Position numbers and translations under genes: made by a program
Notes under the pieces: generated by a model
Seen by the model: only the letters and a program-made list of their open reading frames with translations
Databases searched by the model: none
Told to the model about the DNA's origin: nothing
NCBI RefSeq assembly: GCF_000301055.1
Contig: NZ_JH932301.1
Coordinates: 383,259 to 419,841, forward strand
DNA: 36,583 nucleotides
Direction of reading: 5' to 3'
DNA from: Falseniella ignava CCUG 37419
Lineage (GTDB): Bacteria; Bacillota; Bacilli; Lactobacillales; Aerococcaceae
Shown here: positions 3,537-21,301 of the stretch, in pieces
Numbering within the stretch: the stretch's first letter is position 1
Layout: the number at the start of each line of letters is the position of its first letter

Positions 3537-4511
3537 CTACATGGCATTGAGATTCACTAACCATGTCTGTTGGGCACCTGCGTCTAATAAGACGCGTTCA
3601 ATATGTTGCGCATGCGAACGGTTATAAGCTAAAGCAATAATACAGCCGCCCAGACCTGCTCCAGTTAACTTCGCACCGAGTGCATCGGCCATCCATGCTT
3701 GATTCACCAAATGGTCGATGGTAGCGTTGGAAACACCAAGTTGATTTAAATAATAATGGTTGTAAGTCATAAGTCGACCGAGTTCGATAATATCTTGATG
3801 TTGGATGGCTTCGATGGCTTGACTTACAAAGCCACCAATCGCATCCATCATATTGGTGACAAATTCAGGCTTCGCTTCACGCAATTGATGTACTTTGCCT
3901 ACCGCCAGTTTGGTCTGACCGACCATCCCACTATCTGCCACAATTAAGTAGGCATTTAAGTTAAATTGAAATGGAATCGGTGTGGAACTTTTACGATAAA
4001 TGACCGGCGAATCGGTACTAGCTAACAATGTATCCAGCCCACTCGTCCAACCGTGCGCAATAACTTCTGCCTGGTTAGCAATATAGGTCAATTGATGATC
4101 ACTAATCTTAATTTGCATATAATCGACTAAGCTGCGAATTAGCGCAACAGATACCGCAGCGGAAGAACCCATGCCACGTCCGATGGGAATCGAACTTTTG
4201 ATGCGGAAGTGTAACGGGCCTGTTTTTAATTTGCTGGCGGAGTGTGTTAAGTCAATGGCACGGCATAAATTTTGCAGTTCCTCAGGCACTTTGTCGAGCG
4301 GTCCCGTATAAGGCAAGCTCTCAAGCCAATCAACCTGGCGAGAAGATGCCTGGGTTTCAACAGTAACTTTAGCGCCCGGTAGCGGCAAAGCAATCGCTGG
4401 GTAGTCATAGACGACCGAGTGTTCCCCCGCTAAAATAATTTTACCGTGAGCGGTGCCGACGCCTGTTCGAGTTGCGTTCGATGAAATATCCATATTCGGT
4501 TCACGTTCCAT
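3537..4511 (-). CDS. mvaK1: Mevalonate kinase
   Basis: First enzyme of the operon. This GHMP kinase phosphorylates mevalonate with ATP. The GTAHGKIILAGEHSVVYDY N-terminal motif, the PIGRGMGSSAAVS ATP-binding loop and the C-terminal KLTGAGLGGCII motif are all present. Length (324) is normal for bacterial forms. AAAGGAGGG precedes the ATG by about 10 bases. Its first 85 codons and upstream region are duplicated at 6398-6653, where the gene copy is truncated; this copy is intact. It is divergent from guaA, and both are driven from the 190-base gap between them. Confidence 0.95.
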   Translation of the reverse strand: MEREPNMDISSNATRTGVGTAHGKIILAGEHSVVYDYPAIALPLPGAKVTVETQASSRQVDWLESLPYTGPLDKVPEELQNLCRAIDLTHSASKLKTGPLHFRIKSSIPIGRGMGSSAAVSVALIRSLVDYMQIKISDHQLTYIANQAEVIAHGWTSGLDTLLASTDSPVIYRKSSTPIPFQFNLNAYLIVADSGMVGQTKLAVGKVHQLREAKPEFVTNMMDAIGGFVSQAIEAIQHQDIIELGRLMTYNHYYLNQLGVSNATIDHLVNQAWMADALGAKLTGAGLGGCIIALAYNRSHAQHIERVLLDAGAQQTWLVNLNAM

Positions 4512-4556
4512 TAACTTATGTCCCTCCTTTACACAAAGTGAATTAATACTAGCTAG

Positions 4557-4587
4557 ATTGTATCATAAATCTTGATTTTGATTCCAA
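4557..4587 (-). promoter_or_regulatory. Probable promoter of the mevalonate operon
   Basis: On the minus strand TTGGAA (4587-4582) is followed after 19 bases by TACAAT (4562-4557), preceded by TG in extended -10 form (TGATACAAT). The long spacer is a weakness that the extended -10 could offset. It is duplicated exactly at 6699-6729. Confidence 0.4.
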
Positions 4588-4701
4588 AAAAACAAGCAAA
4601 TCCATTTTGAGTATGATATATTATTAACGAAAGAGTTATCGTAAATAAGATAGGATGAGACGCTATCACGATAGAGTAAGGTCCATCAATAAGGAGGAAT
4701 T

Positions 4702-6252
4702 ATGGCTACGAATTTATATGATTTAGAGAAGATTATTGTACTCGATTACGGATCACAATATAATCAATTGATTACACGCCGAATTCGCGAGTTACATGTC
4801 TATAGTGAATTGTTATCACATAAGAAGACGGCGGAAGAGATTCAAGCGTTAGGTAATGTAAAAGGAATTATCTTATCTGGCGGACCTCACAGTGTTTATA
4901 ATGAAGACAGCTTCAAAATTGATCCAGCCATCTATGAACTGGACATTCCAATCCTAGGAATCTGCTATGGGATGCAATTAACGACCGATATGTTGGGTGG
5001 AAAAGTCCAAGCCTCAGATAAACGTGAGTACGGTCAACATGAGATTGAAGTTTCTAATACGACTGATGGTATCTTCCAAGGACTATCTGAACGTGAACAA
5101 GTCTTGATGAGCCACTCGGACCAAGTGACAGAAGTTCCAGCCGGCTTCACTGTGACAGCGCACAGTCCGAATACACCGATTGCTGCGATGGAAAATACTG
5201 AACGCCGTATTTATGGTGTTCAATTCCACCCGGAAGTGAAAGCTTCACTACAAGGCGACCAAATGTTACGCAATTTTGTCTTTAACATTTGTCAAGCGTC
5301 TGGTGACTGGAGCATGGAGAACTTCATTGACCTACAAATTGAACAAATTCGCAATCACGTTGGCGACCGAAAAGTATTACTCGGTCTATCCGGTGGGGTG
5401 GATTCAAGTGTAGTGGGAGTTCTATTGCAACGTGCCATTGGAGATCAGTTAGTCTGTATCTTCGTTGACCATGGCTTATTACGTAAGAATGAAGCTGAAC
5501 ATGTGATGAGCGCATTGCAGCAATTTAACTTAAATATTATTAAAGTTGATGCGAAAGATCGTTTCTTCAGCAAACTTCAAGGAGTCTCAGAACCTGAACA
5601 AAAACGTAAAATTATCGGGAATGAATTTATCGAAGTGTTTGACGATGAAGCTGCTAAATTGGACGGTATCGAGTTCTTAGCACAAGGGACACTTTATACT
5701 GATATTATTGAATCAGGTACTGAAACAGCCCAAACCATCAAGTCTCACCACAACGTAGGAGGCTTACCAGAAGATATGGCGTTCAGCTTGATCGAACCAC
5801 TGAAGACCCTCTTCAAAGACGAAGTCCGTGCATTGGGAACCGCACTTGGAATGCCAGAATCGATTGTATGGCGCCAACCATTTCCAGGACCAGGCTTAGG
5901 TATTCGAGTGCTGGGTGAAATTACGCCTGAAAAAGTTGAAATCGTCCGCGAATCCGATGCTATCTTACGTGAAGAAATCGCACTAAATGGGTTAGAACGT
6001 GACGTATGGCAATACTTCACGGTCTTACCGGATGTTCGCTCCGTCGGTGTTATGGGTGACGTTCGTACTTATGATTATATGTTGGGAATTCGTGCAGTCA
6101 CTTCTGTTGACGGCATGACCAGTGAGTTCGCTCGCTTACCATGGGAAGTCCTACAAAAGATTAGTAACCGAATTATTAACGAAGTCCCACACGTCAACCG
6201 AATCGTTTACGATATTACCGGTAAACCACCAGCCACGATTGAGTGGGAGTAG
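4702..6252 (+). CDS. guaA: GMP synthase (glutamine-hydrolysing), copy 1
   Basis: Converts XMP, glutamine and ATP to GMP, the last step of guanylate synthesis. The 516 residues comprise a class I glutamine amidotransferase domain (about 1-195, nucleophile Cys88 in GICYGMQ, His176 and Glu178 in VQFHPEV), an ATP-pyrophosphatase domain (P-loop SGGVDSS at 230-236), and the C-terminal dimerisation domain ending [16 protein letters not shown] lies 5 bases before the ATG. The last codons (GAG TGG GAG TAG) form the core that guaA-specific integrases use, and copies of that core recur downstream. Full length, no damage, and duplicated at 6844-8394. Confidence 0.97.
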
Positions 6253-6397
6253 GGAGTAGGCCCCAGCGATTTTGAAGACGAAGTCGAAGAAAGAGCTGGT
6301 GGGACTACCCCGGCAAGGTTATCCCGCGAATGAGGAACTGATGTGACGAAATGAGTGGCTGATAACTACTGCCAGAATCCTAGAAGTCAGTATTAAG
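6253..6397 (+). ncRNA. Truncated first copy of the post-guaA structured unit
   Basis: Identical to 8395-8539 and close to 14695-14839. It keeps the first two long hairpins of the unit and is cut by the duplication junction just before the third. The truncation means this copy lacks the 3' half and the terminator. Probably non-functional if the unit acts as an RNA. Confidence 0.45.
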
Positions 6398-6653
6398 TGG
6401 CACGGCATAAATTTTGCAGTTCCTCAGGCACTTTGTCGAGCGGTCCCGTATAAGGCAAGCTCTCAAGCCAATCAACCTGGCGAGAAGATGCCTGGGTTTC
6501 AACAGTAACTTTAGCGCCCGGTAGCGGCAAAGCAATCGCTGGGTAGTCATAGACGACCGAGTGTTCCCCCGCTAAAATAATTTTACCGTGAGCGGTGCCG
6601 ACGCCTGTTCGAGTTGCGTTCGATGAAATATCCATATTCGGTTCACGTTCCAT
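6398..6653 (-). pseudogene. mvaK1: Truncated mevalonate kinase (5' fragment)
   Basis: This copy carries start codon, Shine-Dalgarno and the first 85 codons of mvaK1 with no change seen, then runs into the post-guaA unit, where one foreign codon precedes a stop. Only the first GHMP motif remains, and the ATP-binding loop and C-terminal motif are missing, so it cannot be an active kinase. It keeps a full copy of the promoter and would be transcribed towards the 3' end of guaA copy 1. It is a by-product of the 2142-bp tandem duplication. Confidence 0.9.
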
Positions 6654-6698
6654 TAACTTATGTCCCTCCTTTACACAAAGTGAATTAATACTAGCTAG

Positions 6699-6729
6699 AT
6701 TGTATCATAAATCTTGATTTTGATTCCAA
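6699..6729 (-). promoter_or_regulatory. Duplicated mevalonate-operon promoter
   Basis: Exact copy of the TTGGAA / TGATACAAT promoter at 4557-4587. Here it drives only the truncated mvaK1 fragment, so any transcript converges on guaA copy 1. Confidence 0.35.
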
Positions 6730-6843
6730 AAAAACAAGCAAATCCATTTTGAGTATGATATATTATTAACGAAAGAGTTATCGTAAATAAGATAGGATGA
6801 GACGCTATCACGATAGAGTAAGGTCCATCAATAAGGAGGAATT

Positions 6844-8394
6844 ATGGCTACGAATTTATATGATTTAGAGAAGATTATTGTACTCGATTACGGATCACAA
6901 TATAATCAATTGATTACACGCCGAATTCGCGAGTTACATGTCTATAGTGAATTGTTATCACATAAGAAGACGGCGGAAGAGATTCAAGCGTTAGGTAATG
7001 TAAAAGGAATTATCTTATCTGGCGGACCTCACAGTGTTTATAATGAAGACAGCTTCAAAATTGATCCAGCCATCTATGAACTGGACATTCCAATCCTAGG
7101 AATCTGCTATGGGATGCAATTAACGACCGATATGTTGGGTGGAAAAGTCCAAGCCTCAGATAAACGTGAGTACGGTCAACATGAGATTGAAGTTTCTAAT
7201 ACGACTGATGGTATCTTCCAAGGACTATCTGAACGTGAACAAGTCTTGATGAGCCACTCGGACCAAGTGACAGAAGTTCCAGCCGGCTTCACTGTGACAG
7301 CGCACAGTCCGAATACACCGATTGCTGCGATGGAAAATACTGAACGCCGTATTTATGGTGTTCAATTCCACCCGGAAGTGAAAGCTTCACTACAAGGCGA
7401 CCAAATGTTACGCAATTTTGTCTTTAACATTTGTCAAGCGTCTGGTGACTGGAGCATGGAGAACTTCATTGACCTACAAATTGAACAAATTCGCAATCAC
7501 GTTGGCGACCGAAAAGTATTACTCGGTCTATCCGGTGGGGTGGATTCAAGTGTAGTGGGAGTTCTATTGCAACGTGCCATTGGAGATCAGTTAGTCTGTA
7601 TCTTCGTTGACCATGGCTTATTACGTAAGAATGAAGCTGAACATGTGATGAGCGCATTGCAGCAATTTAACTTAAATATTATTAAAGTTGATGCGAAAGA
7701 TCGTTTCTTCAGCAAACTTCAAGGAGTCTCAGAACCTGAACAAAAACGTAAAATTATCGGGAATGAATTTATCGAAGTGTTTGACGATGAAGCTGCTAAA
7801 TTGGACGGTATCGAGTTCTTAGCACAAGGGACACTTTATACTGATATTATTGAATCAGGTACTGAAACAGCCCAAACCATCAAGTCTCACCACAACGTAG
7901 GAGGCTTACCAGAAGATATGGCGTTCAGCTTGATCGAACCACTGAAGACCCTCTTCAAAGACGAAGTCCGTGCATTGGGAACCGCACTTGGAATGCCAGA
8001 ATCGATTGTATGGCGCCAACCATTTCCAGGACCAGGCTTAGGTATTCGAGTGCTGGGTGAAATTACGCCTGAAAAAGTTGAAATCGTCCGCGAATCCGAT
8101 GCTATCTTACGTGAAGAAATCGCACTAAATGGGTTAGAACGTGACGTATGGCAATACTTCACGGTCTTACCGGATGTTCGCTCCGTCGGTGTTATGGGTG
8201 ACGTTCGTACTTATGATTATATGTTGGGAATTCGTGCAGTCACTTCTGTTGACGGCATGACCAGTGAGTTCGCTCGCTTACCATGGGAAGTCCTACAAAA
8301 GATTAGTAACCGAATTATTAACGAAGTCCCACACGTCAACCGAATCGTTTACGATATTACCGGTAAACCACCAGCCACGATTGAGTGGGAGTAG
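6844..8394 (+). CDS. guaA: GMP synthase (glutamine-hydrolysing), copy 2
   Basis: The protein is identical to the guaA product at 4702-6252, with the same amidotransferase Cys88, P-loop SGGVDSS and C-terminal IEWE, and the upstream region and AAGGAGG Shine-Dalgarno are also identical. Both copies look complete and expressible, so the cell could have double dosage of GMP synthase. This copy is the one joined to the accessory region: its last 12 bases are the first of five att-like cores, followed directly by the complete structured unit. It could be collapsed or inflated in assemblies because the copies are indistinguishable. Confidence 0.95.
8383..8394 (+). other. att-like core 1 (guaA 3' end)
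   Basis: GAGTGGGAGTAG, the last codons and stop of guaA. Near-copies occur at 8691, 14683, 14990 and 21109, each at a junction between sequence units. The 3' end of guaA is a known target of tyrosine-recombinase elements. Confidence 0.55.
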
Positions 8395-8690
8395 GGAGTA
8401 GGCCCCAGCGATTTTGAAGACGAAGTCGAAGAAAGAGCTGGTGGGACTACCCCGGCAAGGTTATCCCGCGAATGAGGAACTGATGTGACGAAATGAGTGG
8501 CTGATAACTACTGCCAGAATCCTAGAAGTCAGTATTAAGTAAATTAAAGTGCGGAGGCGGAGGTTAATTTATTTCTACGTCCGTCCAACGATTGCTAAGC
8601 CGTAAGGCAAAAGCAGAGTTATTGACGGCCCATCTGCGTATCAAGAACAAGCAATGAGACGAAAAGGAGCATTGCGCGGCTTGATGAGAA

Positions 8691-8702
8691 GAATGGGAAT
8701 AA
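8691..8702 (+). other. att-like core 2
   Basis: GAATGGGAATAA, matching the guaA core at 9 of 12 positions. It marks where the structured unit ends and the variable sequence starts, and is followed by the ~80-bp stretch repeated at 21109-21190. Confidence 0.45.
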
Positions 8703-8772
8703 TCGCAAAATTTTCTAAAATGACTTAATTACAAGCTATAAAGAGAATGAAAAATGGCTACTGGTACTCAAA
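8691..8772 (+). repeat. ~80-bp direct repeat, left copy
   Basis: About nine-tenths identical by eye to 21109-21190, including a one-base T insertion and several A/G changes. It ends with GGTACT. The two copies bracket the whole 12.4-kb accessory block. Two GGTACT boxes at 8763 and 8774, 11 bases apart, resemble integrase arm-type sites. Confidence 0.7.
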
Positions 8773-8840
8773 TGGTACTGGAAGTAAAAAAGAATAATTA
8801 AAATAATAGTTCCAAGTGGTTTACATTTGGACAAAAAATT

Positions 8841-8869
8841 AGACCGTAGTTTCAAGCTACGGTCTTTTT
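8841..8869 (+). terminator. Terminator of the structured unit (copy 2)
   Basis: AGACCGTAG, a 7-base loop, CTACGGTCT and then a T run: a perfect 9-bp Rho-independent terminator. The equivalent stem at 15139-15164 has a different sequence but stays paired, which supports a transcribed function. Confidence 0.8.
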
Positions 8870-8880
8870 GCGTATATATT

Positions 8881-9090
8881 ATGAGGATTATTTTATTTAG
8901 AGATATCCAATGGCTACTTTCAAATGCGATAAATAATATAAATCAGAATGCAAAGGCAACTAATACAACGGGAGTAATTTACAAGAATGAAATTGAATCG
9001 ATGAATAGACAGATAGAAAAATTATCAAGAGAAATATGGCAGATCCATTCCCTACTTCTTAATAAATCAAAAGAAAGTTCTGGTGATTAG
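8881..9090 (+). pseudogene. MobC-like relaxosome protein, C-terminal remnant
   Basis: The frame from about 8905 encodes IQWLLSNAINNINQNAKATN followed by TTGVIYKNEIESM, the NxxNQxAKxxN..G pattern of MobC-family mobilisation proteins, which help the relaxase nick oriT. The N-terminal half is missing: the frame starts just after the terminator at 8841-8869 with a few unrelated residues. A second, independently damaged copy lies at 15190-15468. The stop is one base from the ATG of the relaxase remnant, the expected order and coupling for a mobilisation operon. Confidence 0.65.
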
Positions 9091-9091
9091 T

Positions 9092-9300
9092 ATGGCAATT
9101 ACGAAAATACATCCTATAAAATCAACTCTAAATTTGGCAATAGATTATATAACTAAGAGTGAAAAAACTGATAAAAAATTTTAGTATCTTCATTTAAATG
9201 TCATCCATCTACTGCACATATTTAATTTATGAAAACTGGAGAAGATAATGATACTAAAGGTATCGTTCTGTCAAGGAATCTAATACAATCTTTTATTTTC
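9092..9300 (+). pseudogene. Relaxase (MobP/VirD2-like) N-terminal remnant, frameshifted
   Basis: The ATG at 9092 opens MAITKIHPIKSTLNLAIDYI, the typical start of Tn5252-type relaxases of Firmicutes mobile elements. After about 30 codons the frame hits a stop. The homologous protein resumes in another frame (VSSFKCHPSTAHI, stop, FMKTGEDNDTKGIVLSRNL) and then ends near 9300. It therefore carries a frameshift, an in-frame stop, and loss of the rest of the gene, including the catalytic HUH histidines. It follows the MobC remnant directly. Confidence 0.65.
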
Positions 9301-9321
9301 GGGAAGTTTGGTGATATAGAA

Positions 9322-9354
9322 AAGGCTGTGAGTTTAATGCTCACAGCCTTTTTC
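9322..9354. terminator. Bidirectional terminator after the ABC permease
   Basis: AAGGCTGTGAG / CTCACAGCCTT, an 11-bp perfect stem with a 7-base loop, with T runs on both strands. It ends the minus-strand ABC operon and insulates it from the mobilisation remnants. Confidence 0.8.
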
Positions 9355-11850
9355 TTATATACTCTTGAAAGTATTATCTGAGTTTTCGTTTATTGTTTTA
9401 AGACCACTTTTTATTGCAAGTAAGACACCTGCAATTATAAAGACAAATACTAATAATATAGGAGTATAATTCATATTTATTAGCAGTTCTTTTATTCCAA
9501 AGCCTAATTCATAGTTACTCCTATAGGCTCTTAATACAATGCCTATAGAAAACATAAAGATATATGCTAAGAAAATATTTTTAAATAATATTTTTACTTC
9601 AGCAAATACCATCTTTTCCACTTGTTTTTCTGTCATTCCAGTAGTTGATAGAAGTTTAAAATCATTGGCTCTCGCTTTAAGGTTGCCTTTAAAACTATTA
9701 TAGGCATTGGAAAGAGCAATGGTTATAAGAATAATTTGGATGCCAAGATTTAATAGTTTTTCATTTCTCATTTGTTCTTTATTCATAGCAGCTTTTATAA
9801 TTTCTGTAGAAGTGCCATGATCTGATTTTGGAACATAGGTCAAAATCACTTTTTCGGCATCTTCAAATACTTTTTCTTTATTTTTATCGGCTTTGATTTT
9901 TACAAAATAATAATATACAGGATTAGCTTCATCTATTCCGTACTCATCTATAAAATTTCTTAGACTACTTTCACTTGTGTAAATAGCTATTTCATTTGAC
10001 TTATATGCCTCTAATCCATAAGGCATCTCTTCTATAGATTCGTCAATTCTTATTTTCATAGCCTTTGCCTTTTCATTATATTTTAAAGTAATATCTCCAG
10101 ATTCCTTATCAGAAATTTTTATATAATCTCTAAAGGTGTAAGGCGTACTATTATCTTTAGATACTTTGTTCACTAAAACATAAGTCGCATTTGTAATATT
10201 ATTTACTTCTAAAAGGTTTTTAAAATCTTTTTCTGTTAGTGCATAGATACTAGCATAAAGTTTATCACTGGATTTTTTACCACTATCTAGAGAATTTTTT
10301 AAATCTTTAGAAATAAAGTCCTCATTTTCACCAGCATAAAACTTTGTATCTACTCTTTGATAGATGTGTAATTGTTCTATACCTTTAACTTTTTCCATAT
10401 CATTCACAAAATTTTTATTCAAAAAGTCATCTGTATAAATACTAGAGTTAAAATTGTACGGACTTTTATATGAATTATATTTTTCATTTAAAGTTCTATA
10501 TGACTGGCTAACTAAAACTGTTGTCAATACAAAGGCTGATAGAGCCATAGATATAACAATAATTCGATAGGTTGAACGATAGGACCTGTAATAATCTTTT
10601 GCTAAAGTCTTTTCTATAGGTCCATTTATTTTTGACTTACCAAACTTAATGTTTTTTTCTGTAATGCCATTTAATCCCTCAATAACCTTTATCTTTGAGC
10701 TTTTCTTTGCAGGAATCAATGCTGAAAAATAAACCATTAATAAGGATAACAGAATAATTATTAAAATAGATCCAATACTTGGTATTACTAAATTAAAGTC
10801 TGGAGATTTTAGACTTTCTCCTAAAATATTTGACATTTCTTTATAAGAGATAGAATTGTTAAACCACAACAAATATAGGAGCAGATTTGCAAAAGCCCAT
10901 GATAAGACTGTCCCTAAAGCTATTGGCAAGATTGAAAGTTTAATTGCCTTCTTTCGAATCATTTGCCTAACTTGCTTTTTAGTCATCCCAGTACTTTTTA
11001 AAAGAGCAATTTCCTTTAAATCTCTATTATTCCATACATTAAAAGCACCATAGATTATAAAGGCAAAAAGTACGCAGAGAAAGAAAGCCATCCCATATTT
11101 TTCTATAGCTAAATTTACAACACTTTTAGGTGGAATAATTCCTTTAGGATAAACCATACTATGCTCTAAAATATCTTTGTTGTAAAAAACTCTTCCAATA
11201 TCTAAGGCTTGTTTCTCATCAATATTCATTTCAGACAAAATTTTTCGAGTCTTTGTATAGGTGTCCCTTATGCTTTTATACCAAATCTGCGCTTCTATTT
11301 CATCATTGTTTTCAAATAGATAATCCTTTTTATTGCTATCTGCTAAACCTATAAGCATAGTATCTTCAAAAGAATATCCATAATCATCGTAAACACCAAC
11401 TATGGTATATGTCTTTTTATTTTCAATAATCTCAGAACCTAAATCATACTCCTTATTTTTTATTAAAAATCTCTCTGGTACTAAAAGTTCATTTGAATTT
11501 TCTGGTTTTCTACCATTTTTGATTTCATATCCGAGAAGACCTGTAGAATCTCCATTTTCATATATAACTGCATTTAAGTCTGTATTAATGATTTTATTAA
11601 AAGATACTTTTTCTATGTCTGTATCATTTTTTAATTTATCATAAAAACTTTCGTCAATTTCAGATATATCTACATGATAATCTCCAATGGTTTTCTTTAC
11701 ATATTCATACTGTTCAGTGTTCATTGAGTCGAAAATAAAAATAACAGTTCCTAGTAAAATTACTGCCAAAAGTATGGAGATTTTAATGGCTAGGGTGTCT
11801 TTTTTATTATTTTTAACAGCTCCACTGGCAAGATCATTAATAATTTTCAT
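9355..11850 (-). CDS. FtsX-type ABC transporter permease (two FtsX domains)
   Basis: A large membrane protein with one N-terminal membrane segment (about residues 22-42), an extracellular domain, three segments of a first FtsX domain (about 255-390), another segment near 430, a second extracellular domain (about 450-690), and a C-terminal FtsX block with three segments. This is the MacB/LolC-like type VII layout, usually used for peptide export, resistance or self-protection rather than bulk import. Of two in-frame ATGs, the one at 11850 has GGGAG 9 bases upstream and is preferred over 11859. It overlaps its ATPase by 14 bases. The substrate cannot be read from sequence. Proximity to a two-component system suggests antimicrobial-peptide response. 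Confidence 0.85.
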   Translation of the reverse strand: MKIINDLASGAVKNNKKDTLAIKISILLAVILLGTVIFIFDSMNTEQYEYVKKTIGDYHVDISEIDESFYDKLKNDTDIEKVSFNKIINTDLNAVIYENGDSTGLLGYEIKNGRKPENSNELLVPERFLIKNKEYDLGSEIIENKKTYTIVGVYDDYGYSFEDTMLIGLADSNKKDYLFENNDEIEAQIWYKSIRDTYTKTRKILSEMNIDEKQALDIGRVFYNKDILEHSMVYPKGIIPPKSVVNLAIEKYGMAFFLCVLFAFIIYGAFNVWNNRDLKEIALLKSTGMTKKQVRQMIRKKAIKLSILPIALGTVLSWAFANLLLYLLWFNNSISYKEMSNILGESLKSPDFNLVIPSIGSILIIILLSLLMVYFSALIPAKKSSKIKVIEGLNGITEKNIKFGKSKINGPIEKTLAKDYYRSYRSTYRIIVISMALSAFVLTTVLVSQSYRTLNEKYNSYKSPYNFNSSIYTDDFLNKNFVNDMEKVKGIEQLHIYQRVDTKFYAGENEDFISKDLKNSLDSGKKSSDKLYASIYALTEKDFKNLLEVNNITNATYVLVNKVSKDNSTPYTFRDYIKISDKESGDITLKYNEKAKAMKIRIDESIEEMPYGLEAYKSNEIAIYTSESSLRNFIDEYGIDEANPVYYYFVKIKADKNKEKVFEDAEKVILTYVPKSDHGTSTEIIKAAMNKEQMRNEKLLNLGIQIILITIALSNAYNSFKGNLKARANDFKLLSTTGMTEKQVEKMVFAEVKILFKNIFLAYIFMFSIGIVLRAYRSNYELGFGIKELLINMNYTPILLVFVFIIAGVLLAIKSGLKTINENSDNTFKSI

Positions 11851-12526
11851 AAGACTCATCTCCCAAGAAACTTAACCTACCATCCACCATCTTATAAACT
11901 TTATCACATGCATTTGCAACCTTTTCATCGTGGGTGATAATCATAATCGTAGAGTTCAATCTCTTATTTACTAGTCTAAAAAGTCCTGTGATTTCTTCAG
12001 AATTTTTTCTATCGAGATTTCCTGTGGGCTCATCTGCTAAGATTATTGCAGGTCTTGTAATCAAACTTCTGGCAATGGCAACTCTTTGTTGCTCGCCACC
12101 TGATAATTGTTTTGGATACCTATCAAGCTTTCCTTCTATTCCTAGTATCGATAAAATTTCCTTTAAATATTCGTCATCTACCTTTTTATTGTCTAACAAA
12201 AGAGGAAGCAAAATATTTTTTCGAACGTTGATGTTTGGAATCAAATTAAAAAATTGATAGACAACGCCTATATTCCTTCTACGAAAGATTGTCATCTCAT
12301 CGTTGTTAAACTTGGTAATATTTTTATCTTGAATAAAAATATCCCCACTTGTTGGTTTATCAACTCCTGCTAATAGATGAAGCAAGGTAGACTTTCCTGA
12401 CCCGCTATCTCCAATAATGGCGACAAGATCTCCTTTCTCCATTTCAAAATTCACATTTGATAGAGCATGTACTTCTACTCCGCTATTGTAAGTTTTTGTT
12501 AAATCTACTGTTTTTACAATATTCAT
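11837..12526 (-). CDS. ABC transporter ATP-binding protein (MacB/LolD type)
   Basis: 229-residue nucleotide-binding subunit that powers the adjacent FtsX permease. It has Walker A GDSGSGKST near residue 39, the signature LSGGEQQRVAIARS, Walker B IILADEPTGNLD with the catalytic Glu, and H-loop ITHDE. LADEPTGNLD is characteristic of the MacB/LolD/BceA class. AAGGAGGAC precedes the ATG. It has its own promoter region with 11-bp direct repeats (12567-12588) and is separated from the histidine kinase gene by a terminator, so it is a separate transcription unit likely controlled by the neighbouring response regulator. Confidence 0.92.
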   Translation of the reverse strand: MNIVKTVDLTKTYNSGVEVHALSNVNFEMEKGDLVAIIGDSGSGKSTLLHLLAGVDKPTSGDIFIQDKNITKFNNDEMTIFRRRNIGVVYQFFNLIPNINVRKNILLPLLLDNKKVDDEYLKEILSILGIEGKLDRYPKQLSGGEQQRVAIARSLITRPAIILADEPTGNLDRKNSEEITGLFRLVNKRLNSTIMIITHDEKVANACDKVYKMVDGRLSFLGDESYENY

Positions 12527-12554
12527 ATTTAGTCCTCCTTATCTTTCTTAGATG

Positions 12555-12588
12555 ATATTAGACTTAAGTGACTGGAAAGTGACTAGAA
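12555..12588 (-). promoter_or_regulatory. Regulated promoter with 11-bp direct repeats
   Basis: On the plus strand AGTGACTGGAA (12567-12577) and AGTGACTAGAA (12578-12588) form a direct repeat with an 11-base period, one helical turn. On the minus strand TAATAT (12560-12555) is a possible -10 and the repeats cover the place of the -35, which has no good consensus. This is the usual look of an OmpR-family activator site. Confidence 0.5.
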
Positions 12589-12616
12589 AAAAAGACTGTG
12601 CTTTATTTACACAGCC
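12587..12616 (-). terminator. Terminator of the two-component operon
   Basis: On the minus strand GGCTGTG, a 9-base loop, CACAGTC and then seven T. It lies right after the histidine kinase stop and separates that operon from the ABC operon. Confidence 0.75.
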
Positions 12617-12625
12617 ATAATTAAA

Positions 12626-13603
12626 TCAGTTATAAAATCTTAACTCGAAGGCATTTGATTTTTTTCCCTTATGATATAAAAGCGCTCCATTTTGCCTTTC
12701 CATGACAGATTTTGCCATAGGAAGTCCAATTCCATAACCTTTTGAATTTGGATCCATCTTGTAAAAACGTTTAAAAACTTTTTCTAACATTTCACGATCC
12801 AAACCTTTAGAAAAATCTTTCACAAAAATACTTTTATATAGATTTGTTCCTTTAAGTTGAATTTCTATCTGTCTATCTTCTGTAGCTTCTAGACCATTCT
12901 TCATAACATTGAAAAGTGCCTCATAAGTCCATTTCTTATCGCATATAAGATTAAAATCATCTCCATAAAGTGGAATTTCAACATTATCATTAATAAAATA
13001 ATCTTTTAGGTTTTGTATGATATCTTCAATTAATCCTCGAGCAGATATCCTGTCTTTTGCCATTTCTATTGTGCCAGAATCAAGGGCTGCAAGTTTTAAT
13101 AAAATATCAGATAGATTGTAAAGTCTAAGAAGATTGTCCCTAAGTCTAGATATATACTCTTTTGCCGATTCATCTTCTTCATCTTCTAATAAGTCAAGTA
13201 ATAATAGAGATCCGGTTAATGGAGTTTTTATTTGATGAGCAATATCTTCTGTATATTCCCTTAGAATTACTTTATTTTTCTCAGCATTTTCAGCTATTCT
13301 CTTGTTTTCTATAATAATTTTAATAATCTCATCTCTAAGTTTGCCAAATTCATCGTCTATAATTTCATAATTATCTGAGTCAATATCAAGTGAATGGAGG
13401 AGGCTAAATATATTATTAATCTTATCCTCAAGAGCTTTCTCTTTTTTCTTTTCAATTTTTGAAATAATTATAAACAGAATTATATTTATAAGTAAAAAAC
13501 CAAAAAGTGTTAGAATATCAAATCTTGGATTGAGATAAATTACAAGCAAAGACATTATCAAATTTAAAATTAAGACAAGTAAAATATTTTTGTTTTTATT
13601 CAT
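12626..13603 (-). CDS. Intramembrane-sensing histidine kinase
   Basis: 325 residues. Two membrane segments (about 6-24 and 30-48) are joined by only a few residues, so there is no extracellular sensor domain, as in BceS-like kinases that sense through their ABC transporter. The H-box is EDIAHQIKTPLTG with His123. The N-box FNVMKNGLEA and the G2 box GYGIGLPMAKS are clear, whereas the G1 region reads DFSKG rather than DxGxG. It overlaps the response-regulator gene by 8 bases and ends at a terminator. The ABC genes next door are the likely targets and possibly the signal source. Confidence 0.88.
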   Translation of the reverse strand: MNKNKNILLVLILNLIMSLLVIYLNPRFDILTLFGFLLINIILFIIISKIEKKKEKALEDKINNIFSLLHSLDIDSDNYEIIDDEFGKLRDEIIKIIIENKRIAENAEKNKVILREYTEDIAHQIKTPLTGSLLLLDLLEDEEDESAKEYISRLRDNLLRLYNLSDILLKLAALDSGTIEMAKDRISARGLIEDIIQNLKDYFINDNVEIPLYGDDFNLICDKKWTYEALFNVMKNGLEATEDRQIEIQLKGTNLYKSIFVKDFSKGLDREMLEKVFKRFYKMDPNSKGYGIGLPMAKSVMERQNGALLYHKGKKSNAFELRFYN

Positions 13604-14255
13604 TGTCCCACCTGTATCCTATTCCCCTAACTGTTTTTATATGCTCTCCATATTCGCCAAGTTTATTTCGAAGCCTTTTTACAGTTACTGTTAAGGTATT
13701 GTCGTTTACTTCATAAAAATCATAACCCCAAACATAATCTAAAATTCGTTCCCTTAATAGATTTATTTTTTGGTTTTCTAAGAGCATTTCCAATATAGCA
13801 AACTCTTTTAAGTTAAGATCTAAATCTTTTCCATCTATCGAAGCTTGTTTTGATATAAGATCTAGAGATAAATTTTCAAAAGTCAGCTCATTCACTTTTT
13901 TAATTTTCCTACTAAAAACATTGTCCATTCTCGCCTTTAGGACAGGAAGAGAAAAAGGTTTTGTAATATAGTCATCTGCTCCTTGAGAAAGACCTTTTAT
14001 TACATACTCATCTTCGTCTTTTACAGTAATCATTATTACAGGAAGGTCAGAAAATTCCCTCAGCCACTTTAAAAAATTAAAGCCTGACCCATCTGGGAGA
14101 TTAGCATCAAGTAGAATTAAATCAAAATCATTAAAATTAAGATTTTCTGTCTGAGAAAGATTGTTATAAATAATTGTTTCAATATTATGTTTGTTTAGGT
14201 AAGTTTTAACAGCAAAAGCAATTGTGCTGTCATCTTCAATCATTAGTATTTTCAA
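13596..14255 (-). CDS. OmpR-family response regulator
   Basis: The receiver domain begins MKILMIEDDST, with phospho-acceptor Asp50 in LILLDANLPDG and the conserved Lys in ITKPFS. The C-terminal half is a winged helix with NTLTVTVKRLRNKLGE and GIGYRW. Longer frames open as far as 14312, but the receiver fold begins at a TTG (14255) with GGAG 7 bases before it, so the product is taken as 219 residues. The start lies inside the end of an upstream Xre-like gene, so translation may be coupled. It probably binds the 11-bp repeats ahead of the ABC operon. Confidence 0.88.
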   Translation of the reverse strand: MKILMIEDDSTIAFAVKTYLNKHNIETIIYNNLSQTENLNFNDFDLILLDANLPDGSGFNFLKWLREFSDLPVIMITVKDEDEYVIKGLSQGADDYITKPFSLPVLKARMDNVFSRKIKKVNELTFENLSLDLISKQASIDGKDLDLNLKEFAILEMLLENQKINLLRERILDYVWGYDFYEVNDNTLTVTVKRLRNKLGEYGEHIKTVRGIGYRWDNE

Positions 14256-14435
14256 TTCTATACTCCAATATATCCGATATATCACATTTAAAATACTTAC
14301 AAATTCTACCAAGTATTTCCATACTCACATTCTCATCTCGTCCCATTTTAGCTATGGTATGAGGAGTTGTTTGTATGGCTTTTTGTAAGTCTAGTTTATT
14401 AATTTTTTCCATAATTTATCATAGGAAAATCCCAT
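14236..14435 (-). pseudogene. Xre-family regulator, frameshifted
   Basis: The ATG at 14435, with GAGGTGA just upstream, reads MGFSYDKLWKKLIN and then stops. The homologous protein continues in another frame as KLDLQKAIQTTPHTIAKMGR followed by DENVSMEILGRICKYFKCDI and SDILEY. This matches the ~70-residue YozG-like Cro/CI regulators, with a few residues lost at the frameshift. An internal ATG (14411) could still make a 58-residue protein lacking helix 1. It overlaps the response regulator start by 20 bases and resembles the intact Xre gene at 15541-15756. Confidence 0.6.
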
Positions 14436-14478
14436 AACTCACCTCAAATTAATCTTCTACTTTGTACAGTATTTCTAT

Positions 14479-14495
14479 AATATTATACCATGTTT
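14479..14495 (-). promoter_or_regulatory. Extended -10 promoter of the Xre/two-component operon
   Basis: Minus-strand TGGTATAAT, with TATAAT at 14487-14482. No convincing -35 at 17 bases. It lies about 47 bases upstream of the broken xre start. Confidence 0.45.
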
Positions 14496-14555
14496 ATAAG
14501 TGATTTAATCTAATTACATTAAATAAGTCGATTCTTATAATACATTATATTCTCC

Positions 14556-14578
14556 GGTACTGGGACTGGGACGGGACT
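14556..14578 (+). repeat. GGGAC direct repeats near the element A right end
   Basis: The run GGTACT-GGGACT-GGGACGGGACT is an iterated motif. Related GGTACT boxes occur at 14616, 8763 and 8774, and GGGATTAAAATGGGAAC at 15061-15077. Position near the element ends suggests integrase arm-type sites. The function is inferred. Confidence 0.35.
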
Positions 14579-14682
14579 AAAATTGGAAAATGTCCTATAA
14601 TTAGATGGATTTAGTGGTACTACAAAAAAATAGAATTCAGTATTTTGAATAGTTTGAGATAAATCGTACGTTTGGAAAAGAA

Positions 14683-14694
14683 GAATGGGAGTAG
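14683..14694 (+). other. att-like core 3
   Basis: GAATGGGAGTAG, one base different from the guaA 3' end, and followed by GGAGTA exactly as after guaA. It stands at the right end of element A although no guaA coding sequence precedes it. Confidence 0.6.
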
Positions 14695-14989
14695 GGAGTA
14701 TGCCCCAGAGATTTTAAGACGAAGTCGAAGAAAGAGCTGTTGGGACTACCCCGGCAAGGTTATCCCGTGAATGAGGAACTGATGTGACGAAATGAGTGGC
14801 TGATAACTACTGCCAGAATCCTAGAAGTCAGTATTAAGTAAATTAAAGTGCGGAGGCGGAGGTTAATTTATTTCTACGTCCGTCCAACGATTGCCAAGCC
14901 GTAAGGCAAAAGCAGAGTTATTGACGGCCCATCTGCGTATCAAGAACAAGCAATGAGACGAAAAGGAGCATTGCGCGGCTTGATGAGAA

Positions 14990-15001
14990 GAATGGGAATA
15001 A
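14990..15001 (+). other. att-like core 4
   Basis: GAATGGGAATAA, identical to core 2 and at the same place relative to the structured unit. Sequence downstream differs from that after core 2. Confidence 0.45.
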
Positions 15002-15138
15002 TCGCAAAAAATCAAAAACCTTGTAAAATCAATAGTTACAGAAGATTAAAAACTGTAACTGGGATTAAAATGGGAACATTTTTTAAAAAGAATAAATTGA
15101 ATAATAGTTCCAAGTGGTTTACATTTGGATAAAAAATT

Positions 15139-15168
15139 AGGTCATAACTTAAGTGTTATGGTCTTTTT
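15139..15168 (+). terminator. Terminator of the structured unit (copy 3)
   Basis: AGGTCATAAC pairs with GTTATGGTCT (two G-U pairs) around a 6-base loop, followed by a T run. Same position as 8841-8869 with a different stem sequence. Confidence 0.75.
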
Positions 15169-15189
15169 TATTTTATAGGTTGTACAATT

Positions 15190-16840: not shown

Positions 16841-16992
16841 TTGTCAAAAATAAATAAAGAGCAAATTTCTGCTAAAGGAATTTCAATTCAAATTTATACT
16901 GAAGATTTTAAAAATGATTATATAAGTTTAACGGATATAGCAAAGTATAAAAACACAGATGATCCAAGATTTGTTATCCAAAACTGGATGAG
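16841..16992 (+). pseudogene. KilA-N domain protein, 5' fragment
   Basis: TTG start with AAGGAGGGGG 4 bases before. It encodes KGISIQIYTEDFKNDYISLT followed by DIAKYKNTDDPRFVIQNWMR, the front of a KilA-N DNA-binding domain common in phage and mobile-element proteins. Identity with that family stops at about 16992, where the sequence becomes the transposase remnant in the opposite strand. The rest of the gene is not in the window. The IS insertion or a later deletion probably cut it. Confidence 0.6.
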
Positions 16993-17391
16993 AATCTGTG
17001 AAAAAATTTGTTCGGCGATATTGGTTCCTTCGAAACGTCGCTTATAATTTTTTCCAAATGTTGAAAAATGTGGCACGGCATCCGTAAAAGATAAACCGAG
17101 AAACCAACGATAAGCTACATTTACTTGAATTTCTTGAATCGTTTGACGCATGCTTGGAATCCCGAAGAGATATTGAATGATTGGGATTTTAATCAAAGTA
17201 ACCGGGTCGATACTGGGACGCCCGTTATCAAGGCAATAAACATCTTCGACCAGATCATAGATGAAAGAAAAGTCAATGTAGCGATCAATTTTTCTTAGAA
17301 GATGTTCCTCAGGAACGAGATCTTCAAGCGCATGAAATGCGATTTGGTGACGTGCTTCAAACGTCTTACTTTCAGCATTAATGGACATCAT
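16993..17391 (-). pseudogene. IS1182-like transposase, N-terminal fragment
   Basis: The frame reads ARHQIAFHALEDLVPEEHLLRKIDR, shown here only in part, then GRPSIDPVTLIKIPIIQYLF, GIPSMRQTIQEIQVNVAYRW and FLGLSF. This is the standard N-terminal domain (DUF772-like) of IS1182/IS5-related DDE transposases. About 130 residues remain of a protein normally near 450-550, with no DDE catalytic residues. Three possible starts are close together (GTG 17400, ATG 17391 and 17388). It is truncated at the junction with the KilA-N fragment at 16992. Confidence 0.75.
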
Positions 17392-17422
17392 AGAAATCAC
17401 CCGTTTTCTTTTTATTATATCG

Positions 17423-21108: not shown

Positions 21109-21120
21109 AAAGGGAATAAT
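21109..21120 (+). other. att-like core 5
   Basis: AAAGGGAATAAT, followed by CG as in cores 2 and 4 (GGGAATAATCG). It begins the right copy of the ~80-bp repeat and closes the accessory block. Confidence 0.4.
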
Positions 21121-21190
21121 CGAAAAATTTTTCTAAAATGGCTTGATTACAAGCTATAGAGAGAATGAATAATGGCTACGGGTACTCAAA
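21109..21190 (+). repeat. ~80-bp direct repeat, right copy
   Basis: Counterpart of 8691-8772, in the same orientation 12.4 kb away. It includes the AAGCTATAGAGAGAATGA and GGGTACTCAAAT stretches. It is not followed by a MobC remnant. Confidence 0.7.
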
Positions 21191-21301
21191 TCAATACTTC
21201 GCGCTTTTATTTGGAGAAGCTTTTTTATATCATTAGATATGTAAGGATAATTTTGTATCGGTGCGATTATTTCGTGTTCCGAATATATTTGAAAATAAAA
21301 G

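Follow-up and report, generated by a model that had tools for sequence, protein, structure and literature searches.

A gene-less, attachment-site-flanked cassette with compensated hairpins at the 3′ end of guaA in Aerococcaceae

A 36 583-nt stretch of the Falseniella ignava CCUG 37419 genome, here called the window, carries a gene-less unit (8383–8701) between two guaA 3′-end attachment cores. Such units are discrete, are bounded by guaA cores and recur between different neighbours in several genera; their hairpins H0 and H1 are kept by compensatory changes. We consider it likely that the unit is an att-flanked cassette with a selected fold. On balance we favour a fuller reading: 8383–8701 is a microCIME-like cassette within a row of integrative elements at the guaA 3′ end. 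Tyrosine integrases specific for guaA would move it, and it probably has a folded single-stranded form, more likely DNA than RNA. What is new relative to published microCIMEs is the conserved fold.

The unit in the window

The window is part of a 1.77-Mb contig, and guaA is present twice. The downstream guaA copy, an NCBIfam GMP synthase match, stops at 8394 and is followed by unit, element 1, unit and element 2. The features are listed below. Model R1 was made from ten B halves, and model R2 is a version with H0.

4257–8540, + strand: perfect tandem duplication (4257–6398 and 6399–8540) of the mvk start, guaA and the start of the unit
6241–6398, + strand: third copy of the unit, cut (core and first 146 nt), a product of the tandem duplication
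8383–8393, + strand: left attachment core GAGTGGGAGTA, the guaA 3′ end (codons E-W-E-stop)
8394–8515, + strand: A half, with hairpins 8394–8453 and 8454–8515 where simple units of ~150 bp have the H0 palindrome
8537–8574, + strand: A+T-rich hairpin linking the A and B halves
8549–8700, + strand: B half, the part common to several genera (R2 match, E 1.4e-29)
8581–8628, + strand: hairpin H1, with outer stem CCGUC/GACGG and GUAA loop at 8602–8605; one pair is broken in the window copies
8629–8697, + strand: hairpin H2; the right attachment core forms its 3′ strand, and the window copies have one broken inner pair
8691–8701, + strand: right attachment core GAATGGGAATA, a close copy of GAGTGGGAGTA
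8691–14693, no strand assigned: element 1, between the two units, with ABC transporter and two-component genes; its right end (~14556–14682) resembles other such right ends (by eye)
8702–8870, + strand: neighbour outside the unit, the left end of the adjoining integrated element; SpR18 and a terminator-like site lie in it
8728–8860, + strand: SpR18 (RF02446; Rfam covariance model)
8841–8865, + strand: terminator-like site within this first neighbour
14683–15000, + strand: second complete unit, with cores at 14683–14693 and 14990–15000
15028–15158, + strand: SpR18 (RF02446; Rfam covariance model), at the left end of the second element

The duplicated stretch is 2142 bp long, and the two full guaA genes are identical. 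The duplication may be a recent event or an assembly artefact.

An earlier note, made from the sequence alone, had taken 475 nt after guaA as one structured RNA candidate standing at the left end of mobilisable elements. This interval holds two abutting parts, 8383–8701 and 8702–8870: the two complete units (8383–8701 and 14683–15000) are 97.8% identical but their right-hand flanks (8702–8870 and 15001–15170) just 69.6%, with SpR18 lying there. The second copy that the note had seen is confirmed. What looked like one large RNA combines the cassette with its neighbour's left end, and the cassette is separate from the element beside it. The reported Rho-independent terminator corresponds to the terminator-like site at 8841–8865, which belongs to the SpR18 neighbour. 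The note was right that there is no coding frame: stop-to-stop frames overlapping 8395–8705 reach at most 55 aa on the − strand, and those on the + strand have 46 aa (nearly all over guaA, in another frame) and 40 aa. We therefore reject a protein-coding unit, as no reading frame is usable.

Searches of Rfam 15 with gathering and with permissive thresholds gave nothing above cut-off over 8395–8727 or its relatives, in line with the note, which could not match the sequence to RNase P, tmRNA, SRP, 6S, group I or group II introns by hallmark motifs; the rest of its interval holds SpR18 at 8728–8860. The two SpR18 matches score 108.6 and 117.9 bits (cut-off 60) and are confined to the neighbours, with none in the unit. 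We considered SpR18 as part of the unit and rejected it, since each occurs without the other: SpR18 without the unit in G031 and L143, the unit without an SpR18 match in L038 and L042 (G numbers denote genomes and L numbers loci).

SpR18 recurs as the left end of integrated elements in the window, L033, L034, L011, L040 and L143. Such left ends lie at guaA in several loci, directly after it in L143, and one SpR18-ended element (L040) has Tn916-like conjugation genes (by eye). The available part of PMC6212727 does not mention SpR18.

Among the matches listed, all ABC-transporter ATPase and two-component NCBIfam matches of element 1 are below the models' cut-offs, and its large permease-like protein has no NCBIfam match. 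The same cargo (window 9355–14312) is found in the guaA array of Facklamia hominis (L034 868–5825; by eye). Phage_integrase has no match in the window and five elsewhere in the genome. Further right are an SpR18-type left-end fragment (21109–21191, 90% over 82 nt) before a gene that by eye is cation-transporter-like, and an IS1182 transposase fragment (16918–17400, 148 bits, below the model cut-off).

Relatives and their neighbours

DNA searches matched 8 of 76 Aerococcaceae genomes, two of them (G005, G044) over just 24–29 nt, and 9 of 395 genomes at the order level, three of them over just 24–29 nt. With a 22-base pattern, 10 stretches were identified, which belong to six named species (F. 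hominis, F. lactis, Globicatella sanguinis, G. sulfidifaciens, Fundicoccus ignavus and Streptococcus gallolyticus). Three exact patterns, that one included, had no match in IMG/VR, and query 8380–8880 had none in phage and plasmid records. R1 matched 11 of the 395 order genomes and added distant members: two in G021, one each in G024 and G025, a degenerate G. sulfidifaciens copy and a further Fundicoccus unit. R1 matches in G115 and G151 (E 0.57 and 0.27) were taken as chance. R2 matched 21 places in 9 of the 76 Aerococcaceae genomes; leaving out three weak overlaps on the opposite strand, we count 18 units.

Simple units run core, H0, H1, H2, core over 149–153 bp (core to core). For A+B units, the kind found in the window, this distance is 300–308 bp (307–308 bp for the window's own). 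Both cores (≤1 mismatch) were recognised in 11 of the 18 units, seven simple (149–153 bp apart) and four A+B (300–308 bp). In the other seven, one core or both are missing by this measure; in L057 the sole cause is that the locus is cut off.

The neighbours vary on both sides. The unit lies directly 3′ of guaA in six genomes (the window, G025, G029, G030, G034 and G036; guaA outside the window was identified by eye from ORF listings). Other left neighbours are the right ends of other elements and, in G024, an integrase gene. Right neighbours are SpR18-type elements, integrase remnants or another unit; in G034 and G038, PF00589 matches lie immediately to the right of units. Nine further family genomes were tried; the guaA end was found in eight, and all eight lack the unit there. 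In G031 guaA runs straight into an SpR18 match; its congener G029 has the unit between the two. The order is guaA–unit in G025 and guaA–IME–unit, core to core, in G024, so that in G024 the unit's left core adjoins an element with an integrase. This IME of ~9.5 kb has Phage_integrase (PF00589), Rep_OBD/RNA_helicase, Methylase_S and N6_Mtase (Pfam).

The G021 units lie away from guaA (L138 6140–6292 and L139 5921–6066). One of them interrupts a decayed RelE/ParE-like gene downstream of a RelB-type antitoxin (RelB 3.4e-13); the right piece of this gene matches ParE_toxin below cut-off (E 0.018), and its two left pieces have no match.

In S. gallolyticus (L024 1937–2071) the H2 part of a unit stands between an integrase N-terminal fragment (Pfam) and an element end like those right of the window units (the latter by eye). 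Several guaA arrays have likely defence genes (MmeI-type, type I R-M parts, GmrSD) and a KilA-N protein by Pfam (L033 11129–13879, L035 5814–7478, L136 6715–9932, L034 6718–7329). A guaA-array element in L038 (14444–14970) ends in a glmS ribozyme (RF00234), and in L038 and L036 (~2000–2400), by eye, a glmS N-terminal fragment runs into a guaA-like core.

Hairpins and covariation

On the + strand the stretch between the cores of the first unit folds at −101.5 kcal/mol (z −4.8, 100 shuffles), against z −0.6 on the − strand. The earlier note's several long hairpins and its two-part stem at 8640–8685 are confirmed. Its GNRA tetraloop hairpin is present as GCC-GUAA-GGC at 8599–8608, but the loop is not conserved, being GAUA or GAA in some relatives (by eye). 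Relatives also hold covarying pairs, whose lack, together with that of a transcript, the note had named as counting against its structured RNA candidate.

H0 is a palindrome starting in the core (GUAG or GUAA, the guaA stop codon). The H1 outer stem varies by lineage (CCGUC/GACGG, CUACC/GGUAG or CAGCC/GGCUG). H2 begins with GCCC.UCUGC, which is able to pair with a core.

We tested 22 named pairs for covariation on a MAFFT alignment of ten units, which represent about four lineages. The tested structure was derived from the same sequences (RNAalifold and our own choice of H2 pairs). Paired cells make up 98.1% against 88.0% in shuffles (0/500), and double changes occur in 9 pairs and 29 cells against 5.2 and 9.4. 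The covariation score is 0.406 against 0.192. Slid versions of the structure pair in 36–46% of cells, a comparison that favours the unslid structure, since this was taken from the same sequences. The count of further pair types, 17 against 16.3, is not above shuffles (222/500). RNAalifold on the ten units recovers H0 and H1, with double changes in 9 of 21 pairs, and a compensated H0 pair (columns 18–36) differs between B units that are otherwise near-identical.

The third hairpin, H2 with the core as its foot, is well supported, on grounds other than covariation. Its four tested pairs are invariant and therefore uninformative on covariation. RNAalifold pairs the H2 CCC with the left core, leaving H2 open; in single folds the CCC pairs with the right core in seven of ten units and with the left core in two of the others. 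The two cores have the same sequence, so either pairing is possible, and in a circle they are identical.

Among ten close B halves, 2 of 35 pairs have double changes, with a covariation term of −0.05, and 7 of 35 are disrupted in one row or more, including two that are disrupted in the window's own copies. For the window A half (8394–8515) the support is thermodynamic (z −3.6 for 8395–8540), with a weak match of its first hairpin to H1 of model R1 (20.6 bits, E 0.011) and no covariation support: 0 of 54 pairs have a double change in six sequences.

Compared with 60 shuffles per unit, complete simple units fold better whichever strand and whichever parameter set (RNA or DNA) is used. The z-scores are −2.2 to −8.2 (RNA, +), −2.8 to −9.2 (RNA, −), −3.0 to −9.0 (DNA, +) and −2.9 to −9.2 (DNA, −). 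In the window's A+B units the + strand folds better, less markedly so in the second (RNA z −5.2 and −2.4 on +, −1.6 and −0.7 on −). A strand-specific RNA claimed from z-scores alone was rejected, complete units folding on both strands and as DNA. In the ten-unit alignment 12 paired cells are G-U on the + strand, seven of them from a single column, and the four unpaired cells include no A-C; the B alignment has 12 G-U against four A-C cells. These counts lean towards the + strand and are compatible with RNA or single-stranded DNA.

Cassette, RNA or remnant

The use of folded single-stranded DNA has been described for integrons and phage CTX. In integron attC sites the consensus core pair is RYYYAAC ... 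GTTRRRY; it occurs in 0 of 12 units on either strand, and attC membership was rejected. The unit shares with attC, whose sites recombine as folded single strands (PMC2727003), a hairpin with the recombination core as its foot and unpaired bases within that H2 foot; unlike attC, it has a core at its left end too. ICEs and IMEs in the guaA 3′ end have a tyrosine integrase and a direct repeat that is the exact guaA 3′ end (PMC4701971, PMC5704250). The unit has this core in common with them and lacks an integrase, a relaxase or any other gene.

We propose that guaA-specific tyrosine integrases of resident or incoming ICEs and IMEs recombine the two cores of the unit, so that it could drop out, be acquired or travel with other elements, whether in cis by accretion or in trans. 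More tentatively, the fold may act on single-stranded DNA, for example in conjugation or replication. Vibrio elements that circularise with strand bias have been described (PMC9345347). Were the cassette a single-stranded circle, H2 and H0 would flank the core GAATGGGAGTAG, which the arms on either side of H1 (CCCAU and CUAC) would make double-stranded. The cassette would then carry its own folded recombination site, somewhat like an integron attC. We suggest this because in six of ten units circular folds (RNA parameters) show the core paired to either side of the junction; four have no such arrangement, at least one of them from wrongly set unit borders. Action as single-stranded DNA is quite possible, and action as RNA possible to a lesser degree. 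The earlier note's guess of an oriT or recombination structure comes nearest of its guesses, because both ends are attachment cores. For its 'large ornate RNA' nothing shows a large RNA, and full units of relatives fold well whichever strand is taken, with DNA as with RNA parameters.

The strongest alternative, somewhat unlikely in our view, is a structured RNA: a guaA 3′ UTR or processed transcript that would work as RNA, for example in mRNA protection or protein binding, with the att ends merely its means of spread. It would suit the position directly after the guaA stop in six genomes, where the window has no terminator-like site between the stop and the unit, and the better + strand fold of the window A+B units. 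The absence of A-C among unpaired cells of the ten-unit alignment, beside its G-U cells, and a loop GACGAA.AGGA, present in B units as well as G021 and in similar form in two more copies, point the same way. Against it, complete ~150-bp units fold about equally well on the − strand and with DNA parameters, most of the G-U cells (7/12) fall in one column while the B alignment has A-C as well, some units lie away from guaA (G021), and promoters are not above chance (one found, 1.3 expected).

The microCIMEs of Streptococcus salivarius are gene-less, att-flanked stretches of 130–220 bp in tandem with ICEs and IMEs at the 3′ end of a housekeeping gene; they are described as the most decayed elements, always farthest from the target gene (PMC7563491). 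Like them, the units carry no gene, are flanked by att cores matching the guaA 3′ end (the window units, and 11 of 18 overall) and stand in tandem with an ICE, IME or CIME in the window, G029, G034, G036, G038 and G024. The simple units (149–153 bp) are within the microCIME size range and the window A+B units (307–308 bp) outside it. Unlike microCIMEs, the unit often adjoins the target gene, here guaA in Aerococcaceae, as in the six genomes above, and has a fold kept by compensatory changes, which the available text of PMC7563491 does not mention. In the literature searched, with few subscription papers among it, no publication was found that describes a conserved fold for cassettes of this kind.

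Decay, the published microCIME view, would make the unit a decayed remnant, the fused left and right ends of former ICEs or IMEs, with hairpins of no present use. The position in accreted arrays, the truncated copies in G038 and S. gallolyticus, the resemblance of A+B to a fusion of two units (by eye) and some broken pairs in B halves, the window included, speak for this reading. We found no parent ICE or IME of the unit, and its fold is conserved with some broken pairs. Decay would not preserve complementarity amid sequence change, as in the double change at columns 18–36 between near-identical B units, nor a near-constant core-to-core length, and we regard it as distinctly unlikely. Very improbable is a role of the inverted repeats, which do flank recombination cores, as sites for a dimeric integrase or excisionase on double-stranded DNA, since H0 and H1 stems differ between lineages yet stay complementary, which sequence-specific duplex binding would not maintain.

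Gene-less att-flanked scraps at integration hotspots have so far been treated as decay. If the fold is selected, such cassettes are elements in their own right, and the use of folded single-stranded DNA by integrases of Gram-positive conjugative elements becomes testable. A covariance model detects such cassettes without any gene.

A wider family is suggested by R2 over 398 Bacilli genomes, which matched 15 at E ≤ 0.1, mostly weakly. G405, G420 and G641 (L083–L134) have a repeat whose H1 and H2 start are similar to those of the unit (best R2 E 1.7e-6 within one genome, ~7e-4 over 398; rough E-values). Copies with ≤3 mismatches number 84, 7 and 4, respectively, with 0 for reversed-pattern controls in each. 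In 15 of 19 G405 places inspected (of the 84), a hairpin ≤ −7 kcal/mol follows the repeat within 45 nt, and in 16 a convergent frame lies downstream, so these repeats tend to adjoin terminators. Homology with the unit is probable; the ends differ, and terminator-like hairpins adjoin the repeats. By extension, though we think it unlikely, there might be a class of protein-less mobile elements that are solely a folded recombination site, the single-stranded circle making its own double-stranded core and being inserted by guaA-specific integrases of Gram-positive ICEs as integrons insert cassettes, with distant relatives at ~84 places in one Bacilli genome. The G405-type repeat has no match in Rfam and none in phage records; one plasmid record, named Arthrobacter citreus, matches over 46% of the query.
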